A stretch of DNA of 32,816 nucleotides. Source: Thermoanaerobaculia bacterium (GTDB lineage: Bacteria > Acidobacteriota > Thermoanaerobaculia > UBA5066 > DATFVB01). Below the pieces are notes generated by a model. That model was not told the origin of the DNA. It worked only from the letters and a program-made list of their open reading frames with translations, and did no database searches. Below, one piece after another: positions 1 to 20,289 of the stretch (its first letter is position 1; every line of letters begins with the position of its first letter). The position numbers and the translations under genes are program-made. The DNA lies in assembly GCA_035717485.1 (NCBI GenBank), contig DASTIQ010000149.1, positions 1 to 32,816 of the forward strand, given 5' to 3'.

Positions 1-2453
1 ATCCACTCCCCCGCCGCCGGCCGGCGCGCCGACCCGCCGGGACCCGCGGGCGCATCCGAGCGGCCCAGGACGTCGCGATCCGGGCCGTACGCGCTCACGC
101 GCCGCCGGAGCCCGCCCAGCGCCGTCTCCCGATCCCTCGGAAGGACGTACTCGGGGTGAACGGTGAGGGCCGAATACGCGACGCGGCCGTCGCGGTCCAG
201 GAATTCGAGGGAGTAAACGATGCCCGGCGAGCCGCCGGACCAGCGCACGACCGATCGGCCGGTCGCGCGATCACGCTCGATCGACGGCGGGCCGAGAGCG
301 ACCCGACGGGGAACGACGATCAGGCGCTTCCACGGCGTCGGCTCGCCGTCGACGTCGACCGGAAAGATGGGCCGGACGCGCCATCGCATCGGGCCCGTTC
401 CCATCTCCGCGAGATCGCGCGGCGACGGCCGCCAGGCGGGATCCGCCGTTCGCCAGCTCCGCGGCGGCGATCCCGACTCCGGCGCCACTTCGATCCGGTA
501 TCCGCTCGCGCCCGGCGTCAACGTCCAGGAAAACCGGGGCGGAGCGCGCCCGAAGACCGCGTCCTCCGGCGGATCGATCGTACGAAACGCCTCGGCCGAT
601 CCGCTGATCGCGATCACCGCGACCGGCGGGGATTCGAGCCGCTGCGGAGATTCGATCGCGATCGAGATCCGGTGTCCCCCCGCGTAGGAAAACGGCATCG
701 GCACGTGAGCCTGGACCTCGACCGGCTGACCCGCGGTCACCGCCGCGACGAAACGGTCGAACGGAAAGCCGTCGAAGAGCCACGAACCCCGGACGGTTCC
801 CGTTCCCGACGTCGCGAGGAGACCCCGGGGATAGACCGTCTCGCCCTGTCCGATCGCCGCGCCCTCGACGGGAAAGACGACGGCCGCCGTCGTCACGCCG
901 ACCGGGGCGCCGACGGCCCCCGCCGGGTAGACGAGGAGGGGCGCCGCGCTCGGAGAAGCGGACCCGTCCGGATTGCGAACGCCGATGCCGACGGCTCCCG
1001 CCGGCGCGTCGCCGGAAACCGAGACGACCGCGTGGAGCTCCGAAGCGGAGACGAATGTCGTCTGGTCGGCCGAAACGAACTGCGAATTCGACGTGACGGC
1101 CGCGCCGGGCGCGAAGTTCGAGCCCGCGATCACGAGGCGCGCGCCCCGTGTTCCCGCCGCCACACCGCGCGGAGAGATCGAGGCGATCTGCGGCCCGACG
1201 GACGGAGCCGCGACGGAGAGAGAAAGAGAATTCGACGTTTGCCCGTCCGGGTTTCGGACCGTGACGCTCCTCGTCCCCGGCGTCGCCCCGGGAATCGGCG
1301 AAAACGTCGCGGAGATCTGCGTGGGCGAGATCACGGCGACCGATGAGACCGTGACGTCTCCGCCCGATACCTGAACCGACGCGCCGGGCTGGAAATGGGT
1401 GCCGGTGAGGACCACGGAAGCGGGCGATCCCGCGACGATCGCCGCCGGCGTGATCGACGAGAGCGCGGGCGGGGGCGGCGGGACGACGGTGAACGACAGG
1501 GCATTCGAGATCTGGCCGTCGGGGTTCTTCACCGTCACCGCACGCGGGCCGGGAGGCGCGGCCGCCGGGGTCGCCAACGTCACCGAGATCTGCGTGGGAG
1601 ATGTGATCACCACCATCGACACCGCGACGTCGCCTCCGGACACGAGAACGGTCGCGCCGGGAAGGAAGTTGGCGCCCGAGAGCGAGACCGCAACGGACGC
1701 GCCCGCCGGCGCGGACGCCGGCGCGACCGCCGTGAGGAGCGGCGCGGGAGGGTTCGTGACCTGGACGGAAAACGGGGACGTCTTCGTCGTCGCGCCGCTC
1801 GTCGCGACGAGCGTCCCCGCGTAGGTTCCGGGCACCGCTCCCGGGCCCGCCGCGAACGCGAACGAGAGCGCGGGATAGGGCGGCCCCGCCGTCTGCGGGC
1901 CTCCGAAAGCGATGAACGAGGGAAGGCCCGAAAACGAGTAGGTGATCGGCGCGGTGAAGCCCGGGTCGGTCGTCGTCGTCACGGAGACGCTTCGGGCGGG
2001 ACCGAAAGCCTCGAGGGCGAGCGGATCGGGGCTCGCCGCCGCCTGGAACGAGGGCGTCTTCACCTGGAGGAGAACCGTGGCGCTGCCCCCCGACTCCTTC
2101 GAAAGATTCGGCGGATCGGTGATCTTGACCGCATAGGAGCCGGGCGGAGTCTGGGCCGACGTCACGAAATGGAAGATCACCTGCGAGAAGACGCTGTTCT
2201 TGGCGAAAGAGTATTTCGGGACCGGATCCGCGGACACGCCGGCGGGAAGACCGCCGAGCTGGAGCGTGCTGGAACCGAAACCCGAGGCGGGCGCATAAGA
2301 GATCGAGACGACGAGACTCGAACTCGTCTGCGTCGGAAAGACGGAGACCGTCGTGGGAGACACGCTGACTTTGGAGGTTGCCATCGCCGGAGACGCGGCG
2401 GCCATCGCGAAAGACGCGATGATCATAGTCGCCCGCACTCGAGGCTTCAGCAC
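1..2453 (-). CDS. Secreted protein with three IPT/TIG repeats, 3' end beyond window
   Basis: An open frame of 817 codons runs from a GTG at 2453 to the left edge, so the C-terminus is missing. The GTG is chosen because AGGAGG lies 9 nt upstream; an in-frame ATG follows at 2426. The N-terminus is a signal peptide (KPRVRA, hydrophobic stretch, cleavage near SPAMA|TS at residue 25). Residues about 30-230 are beta-rich Ig-like sequence. Three IPT/TIG-type repeats follow at about 234-318, 320-405 and 410-500, each opening with an I/V-x-P motif plus an AG turn and ending near an NPDG motif. Residues 500-817 look like fibronectin-like beta domains with many Tyr/Trp. IPT folds in secreted bacterial proteins usually mediate adhesion or carbohydrate contact; the actual ligand is unknown. 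It is not obviously co-transcribed with the upstream gene, 162 nt away. TATAGT at 2505-2510 could be a -10 box, but no good -35 was found. Confidence 0.85.
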   Translation of the reverse strand, partial: MLKPRVRATMIIASFAMAAASPAMATSKVSVSPTTVSVFPTQTSSSLVVSISYAPASGFGSSTLQLGGLPAGVSADPVPKYSFAKNSVFSQVIFHFVTSAQTPPGSYAVKITDPPNLSKESGGSATVLLQVKTPSFQAAASPDPLALEAFGPARSVSVTTTTDPGFTAPITYSFSGLPSFIAFGGPQTAGPPYPALSFAFAAGPGAVPGTYAGTLVATSGATTKTSPFSVQVTNPPAPLLTAVAPASAPAGASVAVSLSGANFLPGATVLVSGGDVAVSMVVITSPTQISVTLATPAAAPPGPRAVTVKNPDGQISNALSFTVVPPPPPALSSITPAAIVAGSPASVVLTGTHFQPGASVQVSGGDVTVSSVAVISPTQISATFSPIPGATPGTRSVTVRNPDGQTSNSLSLSVAAPSVGPQIASISPRGVAAGTRGARLVIAGSNFAPGAAVTSNSQFVSADQTTFVSASELHAVVSVSGDAPAGAVGIGVRNPDGSASPSAAPLLVYPAGAVGAPVGVTTAAVVFPVEGAAIGQGETVYPRGLLATSGTGTVRGSWLFDGFPFDRFVAAVTAGQPVEVQAHVPMPFSYAGGHRISIAIESPQRLESPPVAVIAISGSAEAFRTIDPPEDAVFGRAPPRFSWTLTPGASGYRIEVAPESGSPPRSWRTADPAWRPSPRDLAEMGTGPMRWRVRPIFPVDVDGEPTPWKRLIVVPRRVALGPPSIERDRATGRSVVRWSGGSPGIVYSLEFLDRDGRVAYSALTVHPEYVLPRDRETALGGLRRRVSAYGPDRDVLGRSDAPAGPGGSARRPAAGEW

Positions 2454-2594
2454 GGCAGACGGCCTCCTGATTCTCGGCGAACTCCGGAGAGAGAAGTTGA
2501 GGGGACTATATCGGACGACGCGCGGAACCGCGCCACCAGACCAAACGAATCGAATCGCTCTGGGGGGCGACTCGCGCCGACCGCGAACGATCAT

Positions 2595-2612
2595 CTCCGG
2601 GACGACCCGGAG
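2595..2612 (-). terminator. Short hairpin after the deoxyhypusine-synthase-like gene
   Basis: CTCCGGG and CCCGGAG form a 7-bp stem with a 4-nt loop, starting 4 nt beyond the stop of the preceding minus-strand gene. No U-run follows, so it is either a weak terminator or a 3'-end stabilising hairpin. Confidence 0.35.
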
Positions 2613-2615
2613 ACG

Positions 2616-3743
2616 CTATTTCGCCGTCATGCTCTCCAGGATGTCTTCCTTCCAGACGTACTTGAGGCGTCTGCGCCCGCGCGCCGCGTTCTTCTGGAGC
2701 GCGTAGGCGTAGAGCATCGGGAGCGCGACCGACGTCTCGACGAACGCCATCTCGTGCGTCGCGGTCTTCGAGACCTTGCCCCACGACGTCGCCTCCGAGA
2801 GCGTCGAGCCGCCGAGGCCGCCCCAGTGCGGCGCGTCGGTCGTGATCTGCAGCGCGTAGCGGTGGCCCCCGGTGTCGAGCCCGAAGATGTAGCTCATCAC
2901 GATCGAGTCGTTGATGTAGTTCTTCGGCACTCCTCCCGAGATGTAGAGCGCCGCCGTCGCCTTCGACTTCACGACGATCTGGGTCAGCTCGTAGTTGTCG
3001 CGGATCGAGGAGATGATGAACGGCTCCTTCCCCTGCTGCCGCGCGCGGTGATAGTGCTCGGTCAGCCCGATCCCGATCGACGAGTCGTTCAACGCCGGAA
3101 CGAAGAGCGGGACGTTGCGGCGCGCGCAGGCGCCGAGGATCGATCCCTCGTCGTGGCGGGCCGTCTCGGCGAGCAGCCGAAGGAACGCGCGAGACGAGAG
3201 CGCCTTCCCGGCGAGCCGGTCCGCGAACTGCGATACGGCCATGTCCGTCTCCCAGTACTTCTCCTCGTCGATGAACGTGTCGTAGAGGCGGTCGATGTAG
3301 AGGTCGCGGAGCATGCGGTCGTCGATGTCGGGAGTGCCGTGATAGTGCCGACCGCCCCGCACCTGGTAGTAGTCCTGCGAGATGATCGCGCCGGTCGAGA
3401 CGATCACGTCGACCATGTTGTTCTCGACGAGATCGACGATCACCTGGCGCATTCCCGCGGCGATCAGGGATCCGGCGAGGCCCAGGAAGATCGTCGGCCG
3501 GTCCTTGTCCCGGAGCGCCTTCTCGAAGACTTCCGCGCAGCGGCCGAGCGCGCGCGCCTGGAAGGAGATGTCCCGGTATTTGTCCAGGAGCTCCGAGACC
3601 GTCGTATCGGCCTCGATCCGGACCGGCGTCGTCGGACGGCCTAGGAGCGCTTTCTTCTTGCGGCGGTCGACGCCGACCGCCGCGCCGTGGACGTACTCCT
3701 CGGCCGTCTTCCCGACGCGCCGCTTTCCCTGGGGTTTTGCCAT
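2616..3743 (-). CDS. Deoxyhypusine synthase-like protein
   Basis: The 375-residue product belongs to the deoxyhypusine synthase (DHS) family, NAD-dependent enzymes that transfer the aminobutyl group of spermidine to an acceptor. The family signature is visible: GLAGSLIAAG near residue 88, STGAIISQDYY near 116, LFVPALNDSSIG near 213, and SWGK with K323, which aligns with the lysine that forms the enzyme-imine intermediate in eukaryotic DHS. The ATG at 3743 has AAAGGA 8 nt upstream. The first 103 nt overlap the larB 3' end in another frame. Bacteria do not carry eIF5A, so the acceptor here is unclear; some bacterial homologues make homospermidine or act on other amines. The reaction is therefore inferred only to the family level. 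Confidence 0.85.
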   Translation of the reverse strand: MAKPQGKRRVGKTAEEYVHGAAVGVDRRKKKALLGRPTTPVRIEADTTVSELLDKYRDISFQARALGRCAEVFEKALRDKDRPTIFLGLAGSLIAAGMRQVIVDLVENNMVDVIVSTGAIISQDYYQVRGGRHYHGTPDIDDRMLRDLYIDRLYDTFIDEEKYWETDMAVSQFADRLAGKALSSRAFLRLLAETARHDEGSILGACARRNVPLFVPALNDSSIGIGLTEHYHRARQQGKEPFIISSIRDNYELTQIVVKSKATAALYISGGVPKNYINDSIVMSYIFGLDTGGHRYALQITTDAPHWGGLGGSTLSEATSWGKVSKTATHEMAFVETSVALPMLYAYALQKNAARGRRRLKYVWKEDILESMTAK

Positions 3744-4408
3744 GTCTTCGGTCCTTTCGCCAGAATCCGGTAGGCCGCCATCGCGGCGCCGTACCCGGAG
3801 TCGATGTTGACGGCCGCCACTCCGTTCGCGCACGAAGCGAGCGCGGAAAGGAGCGACGCGAGCCCGTCGAAGTTCGCGCCGTAACCACGCGAGGTCGGAA
3901 CGCAGATGATCGGCCGGCCGACGAGGCCCCCGATCACGGAGAACATCGCCCCTTCCATTCCGGCGACCGCGATCACGACGTCCGCGCGCTCGATCTCCTC
4001 GAGCTTTCCGAGGAGCCGCACGACGCCCGCGACCCCGACGTCGGCGATGACGCGGGAAGCGACGCCGAGGTACTCGAGCGTCCGCCGCGCCTCGTGCGCG
4101 ACGTCGACGTCCGCGGTCCCCGCCGTCACGATCGCGACGTCCCCGGGGAGCGGCCGGCTGGGCTTCCCGACGTGGACGACGAGCGTTCGCGAGCGCGGGT
4201 CGTAGTCGGCCCGGCCGGGAAGCGCCTCGCGCGAGATCTCCTCCCAGGCGTCGGGGAGCAGCCGCGTGACGAGCACGTCGTTCTCCCGCGCGAGCTGGCG
4301 GACGATCGCGACGATCTGCGCCGTCTCCTTGCCCGAGGCGAGGACGACCTCGGGGAACCCGAGGCGGCGCACCCGGTCGAAATCGAGGATGAAATCGGAT
4401 GGGGCCAT
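3641..4408 (-). CDS. larB: LarB-type nickel-pincer cofactor biosynthesis protein
   Basis: The 255-residue product matches LarB, which carboxylates and hydrolyses nicotinic acid adenine dinucleotide on the way to the nickel-pincer nucleotide of lactate racemase-type enzymes. The C-terminal part is related to PurE-type AIR carboxylases. Diagnostic stretches are RLGFPEVVLASGKE (residues 15-28), VTAGTADVDVA (94-104), VAGMEGAMFSVIGGLV (148-163) and the PTSRGYGANFDG loop (171-182). The conserved domain ends near residue 219; the remaining 36 residues are Arg/Ser-rich and mostly read the 5' end of the next gene in a different frame, so the tail may have no function. An in-frame stop lies 10 nt before the ATG, fixing the N-terminus and making it shorter than in typical LarB. 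larC and larE are not in the window. Confidence 0.87.
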   Translation of the reverse strand: MAPSDFILDFDRVRRLGFPEVVLASGKETAQIVAIVRQLARENDVLVTRLLPDAWEEISREALPGRADYDPRSRTLVVHVGKPSRPLPGDVAIVTAGTADVDVAHEARRTLEYLGVASRVIADVGVAGVVRLLGKLEEIERADVVIAVAGMEGAMFSVIGGLVGRPIICVPTSRGYGANFDGLASLLSALASCANGVAAVNIDSGYGAAMAAYRILAKGPKTWQNPRESGASGRRPRSTSTARRSASTAARRKRS

Positions 4409-4416
4409 CGGGCCGG

Positions 4417-4422
4417 ATCATA
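4417..4422 (-). promoter_or_regulatory. -10 box implying a leaderless larB transcript
   Basis: TATGAT (5 of 6 consensus) ends 8 nt before the larB ATG, and no Shine-Dalgarno sequence lies between. Transcription would begin at or next to the ATG. The -35 is weak (AAGACC with 18-nt spacing). Confidence 0.45.
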
Positions 4423-4554
4423 CAGGCGCGAGGCCGCCCCGGTCTTCATCGAACTCTGAAAAATGAAAGCGGCGCCGGGCGGCGCGATCCCCCGGAAACA
4501 ATGGGGCGGCGCCGGGGTCTTCGGACACGCCGGCGCGGAAACGGAGGGAGGACG

Positions 4555-4929
4555 ATGGAACGACGAATCGACGGAGGGCTCCCCTTCCTGTGGGCGGCGC
4601 TGGCGCTGGCGGCCATGACGGCGCTCGCGGCGCGGGGATCCGACCGCGCCTCTCCGGGGGACGATCGGGACGGCCAGGCGCTCTACGCGAAGAACTGCCT
4701 TTCCTGCCATGGCGATTCGGGACGCGGCGACGGGCCGAGCGGCCTCTTCCTGAAGCAGAAGCCGGTGGACCTCCGGTCGGGTTCGGTCCGGAAGATGAGC
4801 GACGACGAGCTCTTCTCGCGAATCACGGAGGGCAAGCCGCCGATGCCGGGTTTCGGGAACCGTCTGAGCGCCGAAGACCGGCGGGCGCTCGTTCGCTACG
4901 TCCGGGAGCTCGTCGCCCGCGATCGCTGA
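4555..4929 (+). CDS. Small class I c-type cytochrome, exported
   Basis: The 124-residue product has a hydrophobic N-terminal signal or anchor (residues 9-27) and then one haem-binding motif, CLSCH (C48, C51, H52), followed by the GDSGRGDGP stretch common in cytochrome cbb3 subunit III-like mono-haem domains. M97 in PPMPGF is the likely axial haem ligand. It should act as a periplasmic electron carrier; its partner cannot be named. The ATG at 4555 follows a GGAGGGAGG purine run. An earlier in-frame extension to 4399 lacks a ribosome-binding site and would bury the signal peptide. The decarboxylase gene starts 39 nt downstream on the same strand. Confidence 0.88.
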   Translation: MERRIDGGLPFLWAALALAAMTALAARGSDRASPGDDRDGQALYAKNCLSCHGDSGRGDGPSGLFLKQKPVDLRSGSVRKMSDDELFSRITEGKPPMPGFGNRLSAEDRRALVRYVRELVARDR

Positions 4930-4968
4930 AGCGAGCTCGCCCGCGGGACGTCGTGGTAGAAGGTCCCG

Positions 4969-6381
4969 ATGACGCCCGAAGAATTCCGCCGCTGGGGCCA
5001 CGCGATCGTGGACTGGATCGCCGACTACCGGGAACGGGCGCCATCGCTGCCGGTCCTGCCGTCGGTCGAGCCGGGCGCCCTCGCCGCCGCGCTTCCGGCC
5101 GCGCCCCCCGAGACCGCCGAGCCGTTCGAAAACGTGATCGCCGACCTCGACCGTCTCGTCGTCCCCGCGACGACGCACTGGCAGCATCCGGGGTTCTTCG
5201 CGTTCTTCCCCTCCAACGGCGATCTCGCCTCGGTACTGGGGGACTTCGTCTCGACGGGTCTCGGCGTGGTGGGGCTGTCCTGGCAGGCGTGCCCGTCGCT
5301 GACCGAAGTGGAGGAGGTCGCGACCCGGTGGCTCCGCGACATGATGGGACTGTCGTCCGCCTGGAGCGGCGTGATCGCGGACACGGCGTCGACCGCGACT
5401 CTGCAGGCCCTCCTCTGCGCCCGCGAGAGGGCGACCGGCTATTCGCTGGCGCGCGGAGGGCTCGCGGGAGAGGCCCCGCTTTCCGTGTATTGTTCGGAGC
5501 AAAGCCACAGCTCGGTCGAGAAAGCGGCGCTGCTGGCGGGTTTCGGCCGCGCGCACCTCCGGAAGGTCGGGGTGGACGCGGCGTACGCGATGCGGCCGGA
5601 CGCGCTCGCCGAGGCCGTCGCCAGGGACGTCGCGGCGGGCGTCCGTCCGTGCGCGGTCGTCGCGACCTCGGGAACCACCGCCGTGACGGCGTTCGACCCG
5701 CTCGCCGCGATCGCGGAGGTCGCCCGCGCCCACGGCCTCTGGCTCCACGTCGACGCGGCGATGGCCGGCCCCGGGATGATCCTCCCGGAGCTCCGCCCGC
5801 TCTGGGAGGGCGTCGAGGGCGCCGACTCCCTCGTCGTCAATCCCCACAAGTGGCTCGGCGTTTCCTGCGACTGCTCCGTCTACTACGTCCGCGATCCCGA
5901 GCATCTCGTGCGCGTGATGAGCACGAATCCGAGCTATCTCCGGAGCGCCGTGGACGAGAAGGTGACCAACTACCGCGACTGGGGCATCCCCCTCGGCCGC
6001 CGGTTCCGGGCGCTGAAGCTCTGGTTCCTCATCCGGTCCGAAGGCGTCGAGGGCCTCCGCCGCAGGCTCCGCCGCGACCTCGACAACGCGCGCTGGCTCG
6101 ACGGAGAGGTCCGGAAGCGTCCCGGGTGGCGCGTCGTCGCGCCGGTGCGGCTTCAGACCGTCTGCATCCGCCACGAGCCGGGCGGGCTCCCGGGTGACGC
6201 CCTCGACCGGCACACGCTCGCCTGGGCGGAGGCCGTGAACCGGTCCGGCGAGGCGTTCGTCACGCCGGCGACCCTCGACGGCCGATGGATGGTCCGCGTC
6301 TCGATCGGCAACCTGGGGACGGAACGCGAGCACGTCGTCCGGCTGTGGCGCCGGATGATCGCCGAAGCCGAGGTTGACTAA
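4969..6381 (+). CDS. PLP-dependent group II amino-acid decarboxylase (aromatic type)
   Basis: The 470-residue product is a fold-type I PLP enzyme of the aromatic-L-amino-acid/glutamate decarboxylase family, which releases CO2 from an amino acid to give the amine. Visible signatures are HWQHPGFFAFFP (70-81), H180 in SEQSH (cofactor-stacking His), D262 in HVDAA (pyridine nitrogen) and NPHKW with K294, the Schiff-base lysine. The length fits the aromatic decarboxylases (tyrosine, tryptophan, phenylalanine). The substrate cannot be fixed from sequence. The ATG at 4969 has only a weak GAAGG upstream. The small gene at 6406 begins 24 nt after the stop, so the two are probably co-transcribed. Confidence 0.92.
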   Translation: MTPEEFRRWGHAIVDWIADYRERAPSLPVLPSVEPGALAAALPAAPPETAEPFENVIADLDRLVVPATTHWQHPGFFAFFPSNGDLASVLGDFVSTGLGVVGLSWQACPSLTEVEEVATRWLRDMMGLSSAWSGVIADTASTATLQALLCARERATGYSLARGGLAGEAPLSVYCSEQSHSSVEKAALLAGFGRAHLRKVGVDAAYAMRPDALAEAVARDVAAGVRPCAVVATSGTTAVTAFDPLAAIAEVARAHGLWLHVDAAMAGPGMILPELRPLWEGVEGADSLVVNPHKWLGVSCDCSVYYVRDPEHLVRVMSTNPSYLRSAVDEKVTNYRDWGIPLGRRFRALKLWFLIRSEGVEGLRRRLRRDLDNARWLDGEVRKRPGWRVVAPVRLQTVCIRHEPGGLPGDALDRHTLAWAEAVNRSGEAFVTPATLDGRWMVRVSIGNLGTEREHVVRLWRRMIAEAEVD

Positions 6382-6405
6382 GATAGGGAATTCGGGAGGT
6401 GAACC

Positions 6406-6705
6406 ATGGTCGTCGTCCGCAACGTCTTCCGCCTCAAGTTCGGCAAAGCCCGCGACGCGCAGGAAGCGATGAAGAGCCTCCTCGCGATCAACCGCCGGGC
6501 CGCGACCACGAGCGAGATGCGGGTCCTGACCGATCTGACCGGACCGTTCTACACGCTGGTCCTGGAGCTGACGTTCCCGACCATGTCGGCGCTCGAGCAG
6601 GGGGAGTCCGCGGCCATGACCGATCCCGCCTGGAAGGACGCCTACGCGAAGTTCGTCCCGAACGTCGAGTCGGGATTCCGCGAGATCTTCCGCGTCGTCG
6701 AGTAG
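6406..6705 (+). CDS. Small dimeric alpha/beta-barrel-like protein
   Basis: The 99-residue product has no membrane segment or signal peptide. The pattern beta (VVVRNVFRLKFG), helix (KARDAQEAMKSLLAINRR), beta (MRVLTDLTGPFYTLVLELTF), helix (MSALEQGE...) and a final beta/helix with PNVESGFREIFRVVE resembles the ferredoxin-like dimeric barrel fold of NIPSNAP/antibiotic-monooxygenase-like proteins. The family assignment is by fold pattern only. GGAGGTGA lies 4 nt before the ATG, a strong ribosome-binding site. It sits between the decarboxylase and the Asp-box exoprotein on the same strand. Confidence 0.75.
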   Translation: MVVVRNVFRLKFGKARDAQEAMKSLLAINRRAATTSEMRVLTDLTGPFYTLVLELTFPTMSALEQGESAAMTDPAWKDAYAKFVPNVESGFREIFRVVE

Positions 6706-13617: not shown

Positions 13618-13650
13618 CGGCCGAGCCGTCGGACGGACCACCCGGTCGCG

Positions 13651-13685
13651 AGTCGCAAGTCGCAAGTCGCAAGTCGCAAGTCGCA
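13651..13685. repeat. Heptamer tandem repeat AGTCGCA x5
   Basis: Five exact copies of AGTCGCA run head to tail, preceded by a related GGTCGCG. The unit resembles, on the opposite strand, the GACTCGC repeats at 13747-13770 and 22474-22499. Confidence 0.85.
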
Positions 13686-13746
13686 AAAAGGACAATCGGC
13701 GAATTCCGGCCGCAGATCGCGGACTCGGCACCTGGCATCGACTTTC

Positions 13747-14019: not shown

Positions 14020-14052
14020 GAGTTGCGATGTTTCGTCGAGCGGGAGGCTTCG

Positions 14053-16404
14053 ATGGACACGATTCTTCTCATCTTTCTCGCCGCACTCTCCCGATGGGTT
14101 CCCCACATTCCCAATTTCACGGCGGTCGGCGCCATCGCGATCTTTTCCGGCGCCCGGCTTTCCCGGCGGAGGGGAGCCTTCTTCATCCCTTTCGCGGCAA
14201 TGGCGATCTCCGATTTCTTCATCGACTTCGGCACGGGCCGCGCGATCCTGACCCCGATCCGAATCGCCGTCTACGCCTCGTTCGCCGCGTCGCTGTTCCT
14301 CGGAAGGCTCCTCCCGGCGCGATCCTCCGTCGCACGGACGGCGGCCGTGGTGTTCGCTTCGTCGTTCGCGTTCTTCGTCGTCACGAATCTGGCGGTCTGG
14401 GCATCGAGCGGGATGTACCCGCACTCGCCGGCGGGCGTTTTTCGCTGCTATGCCGCGGCGCTCCCCTTCTTCCGGAACGACCTCTTCGGCACGCTCGCAT
14501 GGACCGGGATTCTCTTCGCCGCCGAGGCCGTGGCCCGGCGGCATCGCGAGAAGCGCCGGACGGCCCTGGCGGTGCTGACGGTCGCCGCGCTCGTCCTGCC
14601 CTCCTCTTCCCGCGCCCAGGCCCTCCCCCCCGTGGCCGAAAACGTCGTGGTCTCCGCGTCGATCGCGCCGGAGGTCGAGCCGTCGATTTCGGCCTCCGTG
14701 ACGGTGATCCCGCGCGAGCAGATCGAGAAGAGCGGGAAGACGGACGTCCTCGAGCTCCTGCGGGAGGTGCCGGGCGTGGACGTCGTCCAGAGCGGAGGAG
14801 CGGGCACCGTCGCGAGCGTCTTCATCCGCGGCGCGACCTCGTTCCAGACCCTGGTCCTGATCGACGGCGTCCGCGTGAACAGCCCCTACGGGGCGGGCTA
14901 CGACTTCTCGAGCCTCCCCGCGCAGAACGTCGAACGGATCGAGGTCGTCCGCGGGCCGTTTTCCGCGCTCTACGGAGCGGACGCCGTCGGCGGAGTCGTC
15001 TCGATCCTGACGCGGGCGGCCTCCTCGACTCCTTCCGGCCGGGTCACGGCGGCGGCCGGCAACCGCGGGTTCCACGAAGAAACGCTCTTCGCGACCGGCG
15101 GCGCCGGACCGTTCTCGCTCGCGCTTTCGGGCCGCGACGTCCACGACGGCGGCGATCCCCAGGTCGTCGCGGGAACGGCGGTCGACAACGGCGCGTGGCG
15201 CGACCGGACCGGCTCGGCGCAGTTCGCGTGGACTCCGACCGACGGGTTCCGCGCGGGGTTGAACGTCGACCGGACGTTCGCCCGGACGGAGATTCCGTCG
15301 GACGGGTCCGCCGCGACGCCTCACCGCACGACGGATTTCGGCCAGACGATCTGGACGGTGCCGGTCCGGGCGCGCCTCGGCGACGACAACACTCTGACGG
15401 GATCGCTGTCGGAGGTCGATCTGCACCCCACCGCGTCCGATCCCGACGACGCGAGCGGCTTCTTCGCGAGCGACACCGTCGCGAAGACCCGCGGAGCGCG
15501 CGCCGCGGACAGCTGGTCGATTTCCCCGCAGAACACGCTCTCCGGGGCGGCCTCGTGGGAGCGATCCACGGTCGACTCCCAGGGCGCCTTCGGGCCGATC
15601 ATCGCGGACCGCCGAATCTCCACCTGGGGAATCGCCGGGGAGGACCAATGGACGTTCGCGGGCGGCCGCTTCAAGGCGGTCGGCGGCGTTCGATACGACC
15701 GGCATTCGCAGTTCGGGTCCGCGACCGATCCGCGGGTCTCGCTCGTCTGGAACGTCGATTCTCTCGACTCGCTCCGCGCCTCGTACGGCACCGCGTTTCG
15801 GGCGCCGTCGATCGTCGACCTCTACTATCCCTTCTACGGGAACCCCGACCTCCAGCCGGAACGCTCGCGGAGCTACGAGGTCGGCTTCTCTCGATCCCCC
15901 GATCCGTGGCGCCTGGACGTCGCGCTCTTCCGCAACGACATCCGGGACCTCATCCAGTACGACGTCGTGCGGCAGCTGCCCGGCAACGTCGGTCGGGCGC
16001 GAACCGAAGGCGTCGAGGCTTCCGCCGTCTTCTCGGCCCGGTCGCCGCTCTCGGGACGCCTCTCCTACACCTACCTCCGCGCGGTCGACGAGACGACGGG
16101 AGACCCGCTCGTCCGCCGTCCGCGGCATCGCGGCGCGCTCGACCTCGCGTGGAACGCCCGGCCGTGGCTCGTTTTCGCTTCGGCGATCTGGGTCGGGCGC
16201 CGCGCCGACTTCGAGGCGGGCTATCCCTACGGGCCGACGGAGGATCCTTCGTACCTGCGCCTCGATGCCCACCTCGAATACCGCTGGCGGAGCGTGGCTC
16301 CGTTCGTGACGCTCGAGAACGCCCTCGATCGGAAATACGCCGAAGCGAACGGATTCCCCGCGACCCGGCGCCGCGTCTCGGCGGGCATGATCGCGACGTT
16401 CTGA
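14053..16404 (+). CDS. Fusion of a DUF6580-type membrane protein and a BtuB-like TonB receptor
   Basis: The 783-residue frame has two parts. Residues 1-160 have about six hydrophobic segments and match DUF6580 putative transport proteins: SRWVPHIPNFTAVGAIAIF, ISDFFIDF, FFVVTNLAVWA, MYPHSPAGVFRCYAAALPFF. Residues 161-190 (ARRHREKRRT, hydrophobic core, SSSRAQA) look like a signal peptide cleaved after AQA. Next come a TonB box (ENVVVSAS), a plug domain (VTVIPREQIEKSG, VFIRGATSFQTLVLIDGVRVNS, VEVVRGPFSALYGADAVGG-like) and a beta-barrel ending in the terminal Phe of outer-membrane proteins. The cobalamin riboswitch and adenosyltransferase neighbours indicate B12 or corrinoid uptake. The start at ATG 14053 has GGGAGG 5 nt upstream. 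The frame has no stop at the junction; a GTG at 14530 (residue 160) could start the receptor alone. Native fusion versus assembly frameshift is open. Confidence 0.88.
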   Translation: MDTILLIFLAALSRWVPHIPNFTAVGAIAIFSGARLSRRRGAFFIPFAAMAISDFFIDFGTGRAILTPIRIAVYASFAASLFLGRLLPARSSVARTAAVVFASSFAFFVVTNLAVWASSGMYPHSPAGVFRCYAAALPFFRNDLFGTLAWTGILFAAEAVARRHREKRRTALAVLTVAALVLPSSSRAQALPPVAENVVVSASIAPEVEPSISASVTVIPREQIEKSGKTDVLELLREVPGVDVVQSGGAGTVASVFIRGATSFQTLVLIDGVRVNSPYGAGYDFSSLPAQNVERIEVVRGPFSALYGADAVGGVVSILTRAASSTPSGRVTAAAGNRGFHEETLFATGGAGPFSLALSGRDVHDGGDPQVVAGTAVDNGAWRDRTGSAQFAWTPTDGFRAGLNVDRTFARTEIPSDGSAATPHRTTDFGQTIWTVPVRARLGDDNTLTGSLSEVDLHPTASDPDDASGFFASDTVAKTRGARAADSWSISPQNTLSGAASWERSTVDSQGAFGPIIADRRISTWGIAGEDQWTFAGGRFKAVGGVRYDRHSQFGSATDPRVSLVWNVDSLDSLRASYGTAFRAPSIVDLYYPFYGNPDLQPERSRSYEVGFSRSPDPWRLDVALFRNDIRDLIQYDVVRQLPGNVGRARTEGVEASAVFSARSPLSGRLSYTYLRAVDETTGDPLVRRPRHRGALDLAWNARPWLVFASAIWVGRRADFEAGYPYGPTEDPSYLRLDAHLEYRWRSVAPFVTLENALDRKYAEANGFPATRRRVSAGMIATF

Positions 16405-16429: not shown

Positions 16430-16993
16430 ATGCCCCGCATCACGAAGGTCTACACGCGCACGGGCGACGACGGTACGACGGGACTGGGAGGAGGGCAGCG
16501 CGTGCCGAAGGATTCCGCGCGCATCGCCGCCTTCGGAACCGTCGACGAGCTCAACTCGCAGATCGGCGCCGCGATCGCGGCGGGGCTCGATCCGGCCGTT
16601 TCGAGCCGCCTTTCCACGGTTCAGAACGAGCTCTTCCACCTCGGCTCGGATCTCTGCACCCTCGAGGACGACAAGGTGAAACGCCCCGTTCCGGTCATCG
16701 AGCAGCGGCACGTCGACGCGCTGGAAAGCTGGATGGACGAGATGTCGCGGGAGCTCCCCCCGCTCGAGAACTTCGTGCTCCCGGGCGGCGCGCCGGGTGC
16801 CGCCCGGCTCCATCTGGCGCGAACCGTCTGTCGCCGCGCCGAGCGCGAGGCGATCGCCCTTTCCCGGAAGGAGAGAATCGGCGGGCATGTCGTGCCGTAT
16901 CTGAACCGCCTCTCCGATGCGCTCTTCGTCGCGGCCCGATTCGAGAACCGGCGGCGCGGCGCGCCCGACGTCCTCTGGAACAGCCGGGTGTAG
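16430..16993 (+). CDS. PduO-type ATP:cob(I)alamin adenosyltransferase
   Basis: The 187-residue product transfers the adenosyl group of ATP to cob(I)alamin to make adenosylcobalamin. It is PduO/MMAB-type rather than CobA-type: [14 protein letters not shown] (9-22) is the ATP-binding N-terminus, FGTVDELNS (35-43), FVLPGG near 118, [11 protein letters not shown], and [14 protein letters not shown] near the C-terminus carry the other active-site residues. It begins 25 nt after the TonB-receptor fusion and shares its riboswitch, so uptake and activation of B12 are encoded together. The ribosome-binding site is weak (CGGA shortly before the ATG). Confidence 0.93.
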
Positions 16994-18404: not shown

Positions 18405-19037
18405 CTACTTGGAAAACGACTTGCGGACGAGCGCAATGACCTGCGCCCGGAGTCTCTCCACGTCCCCCGAAATCTTCGCGGTCTCCTTCTCCATCGCCTG
18501 GACGACCGCCGGATCCTTGATCGAGCCGAGATTGATGCCGACGTTCAGCAGCGCGCCTTCCGCCGCTGCCGCGAGGAGCAGCGCCGCGACGCCGGCGTCC
18601 GAGGCGGCGTTCGGATTTCCCTTCTCCGCGACGAGCGGAACGCGAGAAAGGAGGGTCGCCGCGCAGCGCGCCGTTTCCATCGGCACGTCCGCCGCGTGAC
18701 GCGCGGCTTCCTGCATGGCGCGGGACCGCGCTTCCTTCTCGTCGTCGGTCTCCTTCGGCAGCTTTCGCGCCGCGACCATGGCGTCGAAGGAGGCGGCGTC
18801 CTCGTTCATCAGCGCTTCGAGGCGCGCGCCGGCGCGATCGGCCTCTTCGGCGATCGGGCGGAGTTCGTCGGCCACGGACGCGAACTTCTCCTTCGGCAGC
18901 GTCAGCCCCAGCACCATCGACAGGAGAGACGCTCCCATCGCGCCCGCGCCGGCCGAGGCCGTCCCGCCTCCCGGCGTCGGCGCGTCCGATGCGAGGGACG
19001 CCCGGAAATCGCGGAATGCCTGTCGCTCAAAATTCAT
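18405..19037 (-). CDS. Cyclodeaminase/cyclohydrolase-family protein (FTCD C-terminal domain type)
   Basis: The 210-residue all-helical product matches the formiminotransferase-cyclodeaminase C-terminal family, which converts 5-formimino-tetrahydrofolate to methenyl-THF, or in some members hydrolyses methenyl-THF (FchA). The signature LASDAPTPGGGTASAGAGAMGASL is at residues 15-38, with PMETARCAATLL and GNPNAASDAGVAALLL further on. Its start overlaps the hutI stop by 11 nt, indicating translational coupling and a role in handling the one-carbon unit from histidine breakdown. The formiminotransferase partner is not in the window. Confidence 0.9.
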   Translation of the reverse strand: MNFERQAFRDFRASLASDAPTPGGGTASAGAGAMGASLLSMVLGLTLPKEKFASVADELRPIAEEADRAGARLEALMNEDAASFDAMVAARKLPKETDDEKEARSRAMQEAARHAADVPMETARCAATLLSRVPLVAEKGNPNAASDAGVAALLLAAAAEGALLNVGINLGSIKDPAVVQAMEKETAKISGDVERLRAQVIALVRKSFSK

Positions 19038-20289
19038 GCACGCGCCCTCCGATGATCGTGTGGGTGACCAGGGGCAGGCCCCAATGATAGACGAGGTGGC
19101 GATAGTCGGGAGCGTCCAGGATCACGAGGTCGGCGCGCTTGCCCGGCTCGACGGAGCCGCGGTTGGCGGCGAGCCCCAGGGATGCCGCTCCGTTCAGGGT
19201 GATCGCGGTCAGCGTCTCCTCGATCGACAGCCCGTAATCGTGGCAGGCGTGCCCCGCCACCGCCGGGAGCGATTCCGTGTTGCACGAGCCGGGATTCGCG
19301 TCGGTCGCGACGGCGACGGGTACGCCGGCCTCGACGAGCTCGCGCGCGGGGGCGCGACGCGACCGGAGCCACCACGCGGTGCCCGGAAGGAGGGTCGCGA
19401 CCGTTCCGGCGCGCGCGAGCGCTTCGATCTCCCCGGGACCGATGAACAGGAGATGGTCGGCCGACGCCGCGCCGAGCTCCGCGGCGAGGAGGGCACCGCC
19501 GGAGCGGGCGAGCTCGTCCGCGTGGATGCGGATCCCGAGCCCGAGCTCCTTCGCGCGGAGGAGAATCGCCCGCGACTCCTCCATCGTGAAGACGCCTTCC
19601 TCGCAGAAGACGTCGCAGAAGACGGCGAGCCGCGCCGACGCGACGCGCGGCAGGATCTCGTCGACGTTCGCCCGGACCCAGCCGGCGCGGTCGCCCCGGT
19701 GCTCGACCGGGATCTCGTGCGCGGCGAGCAGCGTCGGAACGATGGAGACGATCTCCTCGGAAGCGAGGTCCCGCAGGATCTCGAGCGACCGGATCTCGCC
19801 TTCCACGTCGAGCGCATACCCCGACTTGGCCTCGGCGGTCGTCGTGCCGGAGCGGCGCATCGCGATCAGCCGCGAGCGCGTGGCCGCGGTCAGCGCCGGC
19901 CGGGAAGCCCGCCGCGTCGCCTCGACCGTCGCGACGATCCCGCCGCCGGACGCGGCGATCGACGCGTAGCTCTCTCCGGCCAGCCGCCGCGCGAACTCCG
20001 CCGCGCGGTCGCCGGCCCATACCGGATGCGTGTGGGCGTCCACGAATCCGGGGAGGAGCGTCTTTCCCGTGCCGTCGATCTCCCGCGCGGGCTCCGGAAA
20101 GCGGCCGCGCAGGTCCGCTTCCGTTCCGGCGAAGACGATCCTCTCCCCTTCGCACCGGACGGCCGCGTCGCGGATCACGACGAGCTCGCCCTGCGCGCGC
20201 CCGCGCCGCGCCGAGCGCCCGGTCGCCGTCGCGAGGCAGGAGAGGTTCCGGATTTCGAGGGACGAGGGCGCCGGCCGCTCAGCCGACAT
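19027..20289 (-). CDS. hutI: Imidazolonepropionase
   Basis: The 420-residue product hydrolyses 4-imidazolone-5-propanoate to N-formimino-L-glutamate, step three of histidine degradation. It is an amidohydrolase-fold metalloenzyme: PGFVDAHTHPVWAGDRA (80-96) supplies two metal-binding His, EAKSGYALD the substrate loop, LLAAHEIP and IRIHADE further His ligands, and VATDANPGS the metal-binding Asp. Length is normal. No hutH or hutU is nearby; the co-transcribed gene is the cyclodeaminase-family protein. The ATG at 20289 lacks a recognisable ribosome-binding site, so a start a few codons away cannot be excluded. Confidence 0.93.
   Translation of the reverse strand: MSAERPAPSSLEIRNLSCLATATGRSARRGRAQGELVVIRDAAVRCEGERIVFAGTEADLRGRFPEPAREIDGTGKTLLPGFVDAHTHPVWAGDRAAEFARRLAGESYASIAASGGGIVATVEATRRASRPALTAATRSRLIAMRRSGTTTAEAKSGYALDVEGEIRSLEILRDLASEEIVSIVPTLLAAHEIPVEHRGDRAGWVRANVDEILPRVASARLAVFCDVFCEEGVFTMEESRAILLRAKELGLGIRIHADELARSGGALLAAELGAASADHLLFIGPGEIEALARAGTVATLLPGTAWWLRSRRAPARELVEAGVPVAVATDANPGSCNTESLPAVAGHACHDYGLSIEETLTAITLNGAASLGLAANRGSVEPGKRADLVILDAPDYRHLVYHWGLPLVTHTIIGGRVHEF

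Follow-up and report, generated by a model that had tools for sequence, protein, structure and literature searches.

A cobalamin riboswitch-controlled gene joining DUF6580 to a BtuB-type receptor: a likely polyprotein of two membranes in Thermoanaerobaculia

BtuM of Thiobacillus denitrificans is an ECF-independent importer of vitamin B12 that spans the membrane six times and has its two termini in the cytoplasm; it was found through its link to btuB, and its essential cysteine, Cys80, sits in L3 (PMC6072759). About 10% of the B12-importing prokaryotes covered by a survey were without BtuFCD and should have another route across the inner membrane (PMC2667541). The domain family DUF6580 (PF20221) was not mentioned in the open literature searched. 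Here, a stretch of 32,816 nucleotides (contig DASTIQ010000149.1, hereafter the window) from a fragmented 3.8-Mb draft genome of a Thermoanaerobaculia bacterium (339 contigs) is described, in which DUF6580 and a BtuB-type TonB-dependent receptor share one reading frame. Acido-Lenti-1 RNA was seen in relatives of this genome, in keeping with a place in the Acidobacteriota. The component parts are of known kinds, while the inner/outer-membrane polyprotein and the role proposed for DUF6580 appear to be new.

Anatomy, regulation and junction of the fused gene

An initial annotation, made from the sequence alone, had claimed one uninterrupted frame encoding a DUF6580-type protein and a BtuB-like receptor under a B12 riboswitch, and this was confirmed. 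The gene (Table 1) is a single open frame of 783 aa, with its ATG at 14053 and its stop at 16404. Pfam analysis of the protein placed DUF6580 at residues 4–164 (151.5 bits against a curated cut-off of 27), Plug (PF07715) at residues 212–315 (1.7e-32, 112.6 bits) and the TonB barrel (PF00593) at residues 380–745 (2e-52, 179.9 bits). With plug and barrel both over their cut-offs, the C-terminal half satisfies the criterion for a TonB-dependent receptor. The best of all NCBIfam models for this half was TIGR01779 (321.5 bits, below the equivalog cut-off of 599.7), and ranks 1–12 of its Foldseek search were all BtuB. Together with the RF00174 riboswitch upstream, this meets the criterion for a BtuB-like receptor (BtuB fold plus B12 regulation), with cobalamin binding and transport remaining inferred.

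The riboswitch ends 22 nt before the ATG and is the sole cobalamin riboswitch found in the window's genome, one per genome also being the case in 17 of 19 genomes of the order. The start context (cgGGAGGttcgATG) was found to be alike in the fused genes and their nearest unfused relatives. No terminator-like site was detected on the + strand between aptamer and start codon. Control at the level of translation is inferred; folding of the leader RNA did not settle whether the start site is hidden. The gene for a PduO-type adenosyltransferase, next in the probable operon, also lies directly downstream of the receptor in three related genomes (G001, G005 and G007). The heptamer GTCGCAA is repeated six times in tandem at 13645–13686, shortly before the riboswitch.

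Table 1. Features of the fused gene and its surroundings (window coordinates; the arrow marks the predicted cut)
Feature	Position	Strand	Evidence or remark
Cobalamin riboswitch RF00174	13819..14030	+	cmscan, 123.5 bits vs gathering 31.5
Shine-Dalgarno GGGAGG	14042..14047	+	Sequence; single start region for both halves
Fused gene, DUF6580 + signal peptide + BtuB-type TonB receptor	14053..16404	+	Open frame, Pfam; fusion kept in G007, G005, G404
DUF6580 part, residues 1–164	14053..14544	+	PF20221 3e-44; AF2 pLDDT 94.4; Foldseek best match BtuM 8ovv, TM 0.73
Basic n-region RRHREKRR, residues 162–169, predicted cytoplasmic	14536..14559	+	Sequence
Hydrophobic core LAVLTVAALVL, residues 172–182, of the putative internal signal peptide	14566..14598	+	Aligns with BtuB signal-peptide columns (TIGR01779, NF007926) and G001 signal peptide
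Predicted mature BtuB receptor from Q189 (after SRA↓QA), TonB-box-like ENVVVSA	14617..16401	+	TIGR01779 1.1e-95; Foldseek
PduO-type cob(I)alamin adenosyltransferase, next gene of probable operon	16430..16993	+	TIGR00636 204.1 bits vs cut-off 108.45; PF01923 6.6e-61

The resemblance of the junction to a signal peptide had also been claimed, and this part held and was strengthened. In the window the basic stretch is followed by the core (mean Kyte-Doolittle 2.95) and by SRA↓QA, with the likely cut after residue 188. Across the four fusions identified (see below), 4–6 K/R occur in the 20 residues preceding the core, the cores have a mean Kyte-Doolittle of 2.6–2.95 and the likely cleavage sites are SRA↓QA, ASA↓QV, AIG↓QP and ARA↓QV, so that basic stretch, hydrophobic core and AxA↓Q or AxG↓Q are kept in all four despite drift of the linker. 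Similar signal-peptide ends are seen in unfused receptors of the order (AGA↓QT, VRA↓QQ, ALG↓QA). The unfused receptor of the congener G001 has its own signal peptide, which aligns across the fusion junction, and the BtuB profiles TIGR01779 and NF007926 align from fusion residue 172, corresponding to profile columns 6–8, their signal peptide. Unfused DUF6580 proteins have short tails after the last span with no such hydrophobic core.

It is likely that the junction represents the receptor's own signal peptide, and the sequence and model criteria for a polyprotein processed by signal peptidase are met, with cleavage itself inferred in the absence of protein-level data. The most positive loops, RLSRRR, PARSSVAR and RRHREKRR, alternate along the DUF6580 part, from which we infer by the positive-inside rule that both of its ends are cytoplasmic. 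In the full-length AF2 model the junction (residues 137–202) is of low confidence, and the model therefore speaks neither for nor against cleavage. The suggested release of the receptor by signal peptidase, with 1:1 output of the two parts, is thus supported as a reading, in which cleavage, 1:1 output and transport are still inferences.

Conservation and history of the fusion

The in-frame fusion was also found in G007 and G005, two genomes of other genera in another family of the order (first 101 genomes searched), and in G404, assigned to another class (phylum sample), giving a spread of four genomes and three families with the window's included. The junction is open in all three of these genomes, their DUF6580 identity is 44–47%, and RF00174 lies directly upstream in all four. 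It should be noted that G404 is 75% complete and that misbinning of its fusion-bearing contig is not excluded; its receptor part is interrupted by a frame break and lacks a stretch, and only the N-terminal part entered the tree. On one contig of this genome (L079) the fused gene and the genes for BtuF, BtuC and BtuD are in convergent orientation (1215–4214, +; 4277–6549, −), forming a compact B12-uptake locus.

It had been pointed out that the frame might be an artefact of a frameshift or stop loss near position 14530. This is excluded, albeit without read-level data, by three other genomes, belonging to two further families, in which the frame is kept. Relatives with two genes and a stop codon between them, the other outcome that would have refuted the claim, were not found among close relatives, which have either the fusion or no DUF6580 (G001, G003); two-gene encoding was seen only in more distant relatives and in the reversed order, btuB then DUF6580. 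As this unfused order is the opposite of that in the fusion, simple stop loss did not give rise to the fused gene. Between G007 and G005 dN/dS was ~0.26 for DUF6580 and ~0.28 for the receptor, indicating purifying selection on both halves, with the linker (~1.0) drifting. A further candidate, a 1032-aa open frame in G158, was rejected, the receptor there being a separate gene in another frame.

The four fused DUF6580 parts formed one clade (support 95/92), and the receptor tree placed the fused genomes to match. DUF6580 is absent from G001, of the same genus as the window, and from G003; the G001 locus has riboswitch, receptor, PduO and then a lipoprotein-like gene, as in the window but without DUF6580. 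The best joint reading of both trees is likely to be a single fusion event followed by loss of DUF6580 in G001 and G003. In the G003 receptor gene (L118), which has no DUF6580, the ribosome-binding site and first four codons (ATGACGACCGCG) match the fused G007 gene exactly, and the middle may have been deleted in frame, for which this is suggestive rather than proof.

Several other genes of these neighbourhoods were noted. In G005 and G007 an AIR-carboxylase/LarB-like gene lies near the fused gene (L027 2845–3687; L028 10117–10902); in the window such a gene is found at 3641–4408 (−), ~9.6 kb from the fused gene, in a neighbourhood conserved with these two genomes. Elsewhere in the window, an FTCD_C cyclodeaminase gene (18405–19037, −) and a HutI-looking amidohydrolase gene (19027–20289, −) overlap by 11 bases and are likely to represent a histidine-degradation pair.

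Fold, context and distribution of DUF6580

The claim of about six membrane segments in DUF6580 held at model level, with the helices of its AF2 model being consistent with six spans. A Foldseek search of this model against 350,542 PDB chains gave as top match BtuM with hydroxycobalamin (probability 1.00, E 0.019), followed by ECF S-components for folate, thiamin, pantothenate and riboflavin. Although no match has an E-value under 0.001, a six-helix ECF S-component/BtuM-like fold is predicted by the model with confidence. The proposal of a B12-related role for DUF6580 was thereby supported and sharpened, its fold being closest to that of a B12 importer. A DUF6580 sequence profile found nothing up to E 10 among PDB chains, BtuM included, and no NCBIfam model matched the DUF6580 part. 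The family shows a conserved PHxPN in loop 1 and a frequent, not invariant, Cys132 after span 5. Cys132 was considered as a counterpart of BtuM Cys80 and rejected on position (after span 5 versus L3). With the loop-3 cysteine of BtuM unmatched, the same binding chemistry is unlikely, and DUF6580 fails both criteria for the BtuM family proper, namely sequence homology and an invariant loop-3 cysteine. EcfT (PF02361) was detected in none of 14 genomes, which meets the criterion of a solitary importer (no ECF module). A plasmid search found no DUF6580. The family might conceivably be the BtuN of some annotations, a name that two papers give with no sequence attached.

The order riboswitch, TonB receptor, DUF6580, with the two genes unfused, was found in eight genomes (G029, G068, G038, G158, G487, G449, G428 and G358). 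The riboswitch directly precedes DUF6580 in G129 and lies upstream of DUF6580 and a receptor in G435, and a btuF-like gene is added at the DUF6580 loci of G487 and G269. Approximately half of the unfused loci examined had no B12 riboswitch nearby, as in family f25. A PP-loop ATPase domain (PF01902, Diphthami_syn_2) recurs beside DUF6580 in two phyla (L021, L028, L029, L030, L032, L072 and L073).

Within the phylum sample of 396 genomes, DUF6580 was detected in 55 and FecCD, the BtuC-type permease, was missing in 48. DUF6580 was present in 33 of the 48 genomes without FecCD versus 22 of the 348 with it (Fisher p ~4e-22); conversely, FecCD was missing in 33 of the 55 DUF6580 genomes versus 15 of the 341 others. 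The 33 span seven families, with 24 in f25, and this phylogenetic clustering means that the p-values overstate independence; with f25 left out of the DUF6580 set p was ~2e-6. In the window's class only four good-quality genomes lack FecCD, and all four carry DUF6580, three of them belonging to one genus. The clearest example among the FecCD-less genomes, G029 (99% complete), has MetH and a BtuB-DUF6580 pair under a B12 riboswitch; CbiQ/EcfT, CbiB and ABC_membrane_2 were likewise not found in it. The window's genome has MetH and no CbiB and should thus need outside B12. It also carries BtuFCD-type genes, so DUF6580 is not its only possible B12 route. The matches to the MetH activation domain (PF02965) in G003, G005, G007 and G487 are weaker than in the window's genome (G000) and include one in-frame stop each; MetH is possibly split or altered in these genomes.

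Alternative readings and comparison with known systems

The fragmented state of the draft and the lack of DUF6580 in the congener G001 could raise the suspicion that faulty assembly or sequencing, or a stop codon lost recently in one lineage, produced the fused frame. Such an origin is all but ruled out by the open fusions in three other genomes at the identities given above, by their shared riboswitch and similar start context and by the purifying selection on both halves. It could also be held that two proteins arise through an internal translation start near residue 160, giving a normal pre-BtuB without any cleavage of the fusion. GTG codons at window residues 160 and 174, with similar codons in the other fusions, and the ordinary signal-peptide precursor that would result speak for this. 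However, no Shine-Dalgarno sequence was present at the candidate codons in the window, G007 or G404, their positions are not conserved and, without a stop after DUF6580, the long product would be made anyway and would still need a cut for release, leaving this explanation highly improbable. An uncut protein forming a tethered chain between the two membranes would agree with the lack of processing data and with the low-confidence linker of the AF2 model. The periplasm is ~20 nm wide. The ~15 residues from the hydrophobic core to the TonB box are too short to cross it, and the cleavage motif is kept in all four fusions while the linker sequence drifts, so that this possibility too can practically be set aside.

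A further alternative accepts the polyprotein but not the B12 importer, with DUF6580 instead moving or sensing cobinamide, a lower-ligand base or cobalt, or modifying corrinoids. In its favour, S-components of one fold serve many substrates, as the Foldseek list itself illustrates, the window's genome already has BtuFCD-type genes, and many unfused DUF6580 genes, for example in f25, have no B12 riboswitch nearby. Against it, the closest fold is BtuM and not another S-component, the recurrent partners are btuB, btuF-like and PduO genes, and the DUF6580 genomes without FecCD are spread over seven families. This alternative is considered unlikely.

The preferred reading is that the gene encodes a polyprotein from which signal peptidase generates two proteins, an inner-membrane B12 importer resembling BtuM and the receptor BtuB. 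This is likely; anatomy, conservation, regulatory element, predicted-fold similarity and distribution are directly shown, and topology, cleavage, transport, 1:1 output and translational control are inferred. Under scarce B12 the start site would be freed, and DUF6580 would insert into the inner membrane as a six-span protein whose two ends face the cytoplasm, as is the case for BtuM. The basic stretch would then start Sec export of the receptor, and signal peptidase I would cut after residue 188, with BtuB going to the outer membrane and DUF6580 remaining in the inner membrane, where what had been the signal peptide would form its seventh span. BtuB would carry B12 into the periplasm, DUF6580 would move the corrinoid across the inner membrane as a solitary S-component-type importer, like BtuM, and PduO would adenosylate it. 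It is proposed that DUF6580 acts alongside BtuFCD in the window's organism and takes its place in some relatives, among them G029, and that the fusion serves to tie both halves to a single riboswitch-controlled start.

A bolder reading, which is somewhat more probable than not, is that of a true two-membrane polyprotein with DUF6580 as a new class of B12 importer replacing BtuFCD in many bacteria of the phylum, and possibly in Bacteroidota. It counts against the importer reading that G001 and G003 do without DUF6580. With its fitting fold, operons and distribution, DUF6580 is a testable candidate for part of the BtuFCD-less gap, and this case for a BtuM-like importer, by which an uncharacterised family gains a putative job in B12 import, is the most valuable addition made here. 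The fusion also suggests that, via an internal signal peptide, two membranes can be supplied from one frame, and it provides physical evidence, beyond co-occurrence, for an inner- and an outer-membrane protein sharing one pathway.

Compared with BtuM, DUF6580 has six spans and cytoplasmic ends (both predicted), a length of ~170–200 aa, a link to btuB, genomes without EcfT and BtuM as best fold match; it differs in having no detectable sequence relation, in missing the loop-3 cysteine and in being fused to BtuB. The receptor half shares with BtuB its top fold matches, TIGR01779 as best model, a TonB-box-like N-terminus and the cobalamin riboswitch, whereas it scores under the equivalog cut-off and is produced as the C-terminal portion of a larger protein. 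The unfused btuB-DUF6580 riboswitch operons contain the same protein kinds and riboswitch family as the fusion, but as two genes with the receptor first. Bradyrhizobium FbcH is a cytochrome b/c1 polyprotein whose single frame encodes a polytopic inner-membrane protein, then an internal cleavable signal and then an exported protein; the literature searched contained no paper on it. The fused gene shows this same arrangement, its internal signal sequence being putative. They differ in that both FbcH products belong to one inner-membrane complex, whereas the second product of the fused gene is predicted to be an outer-membrane barrel.
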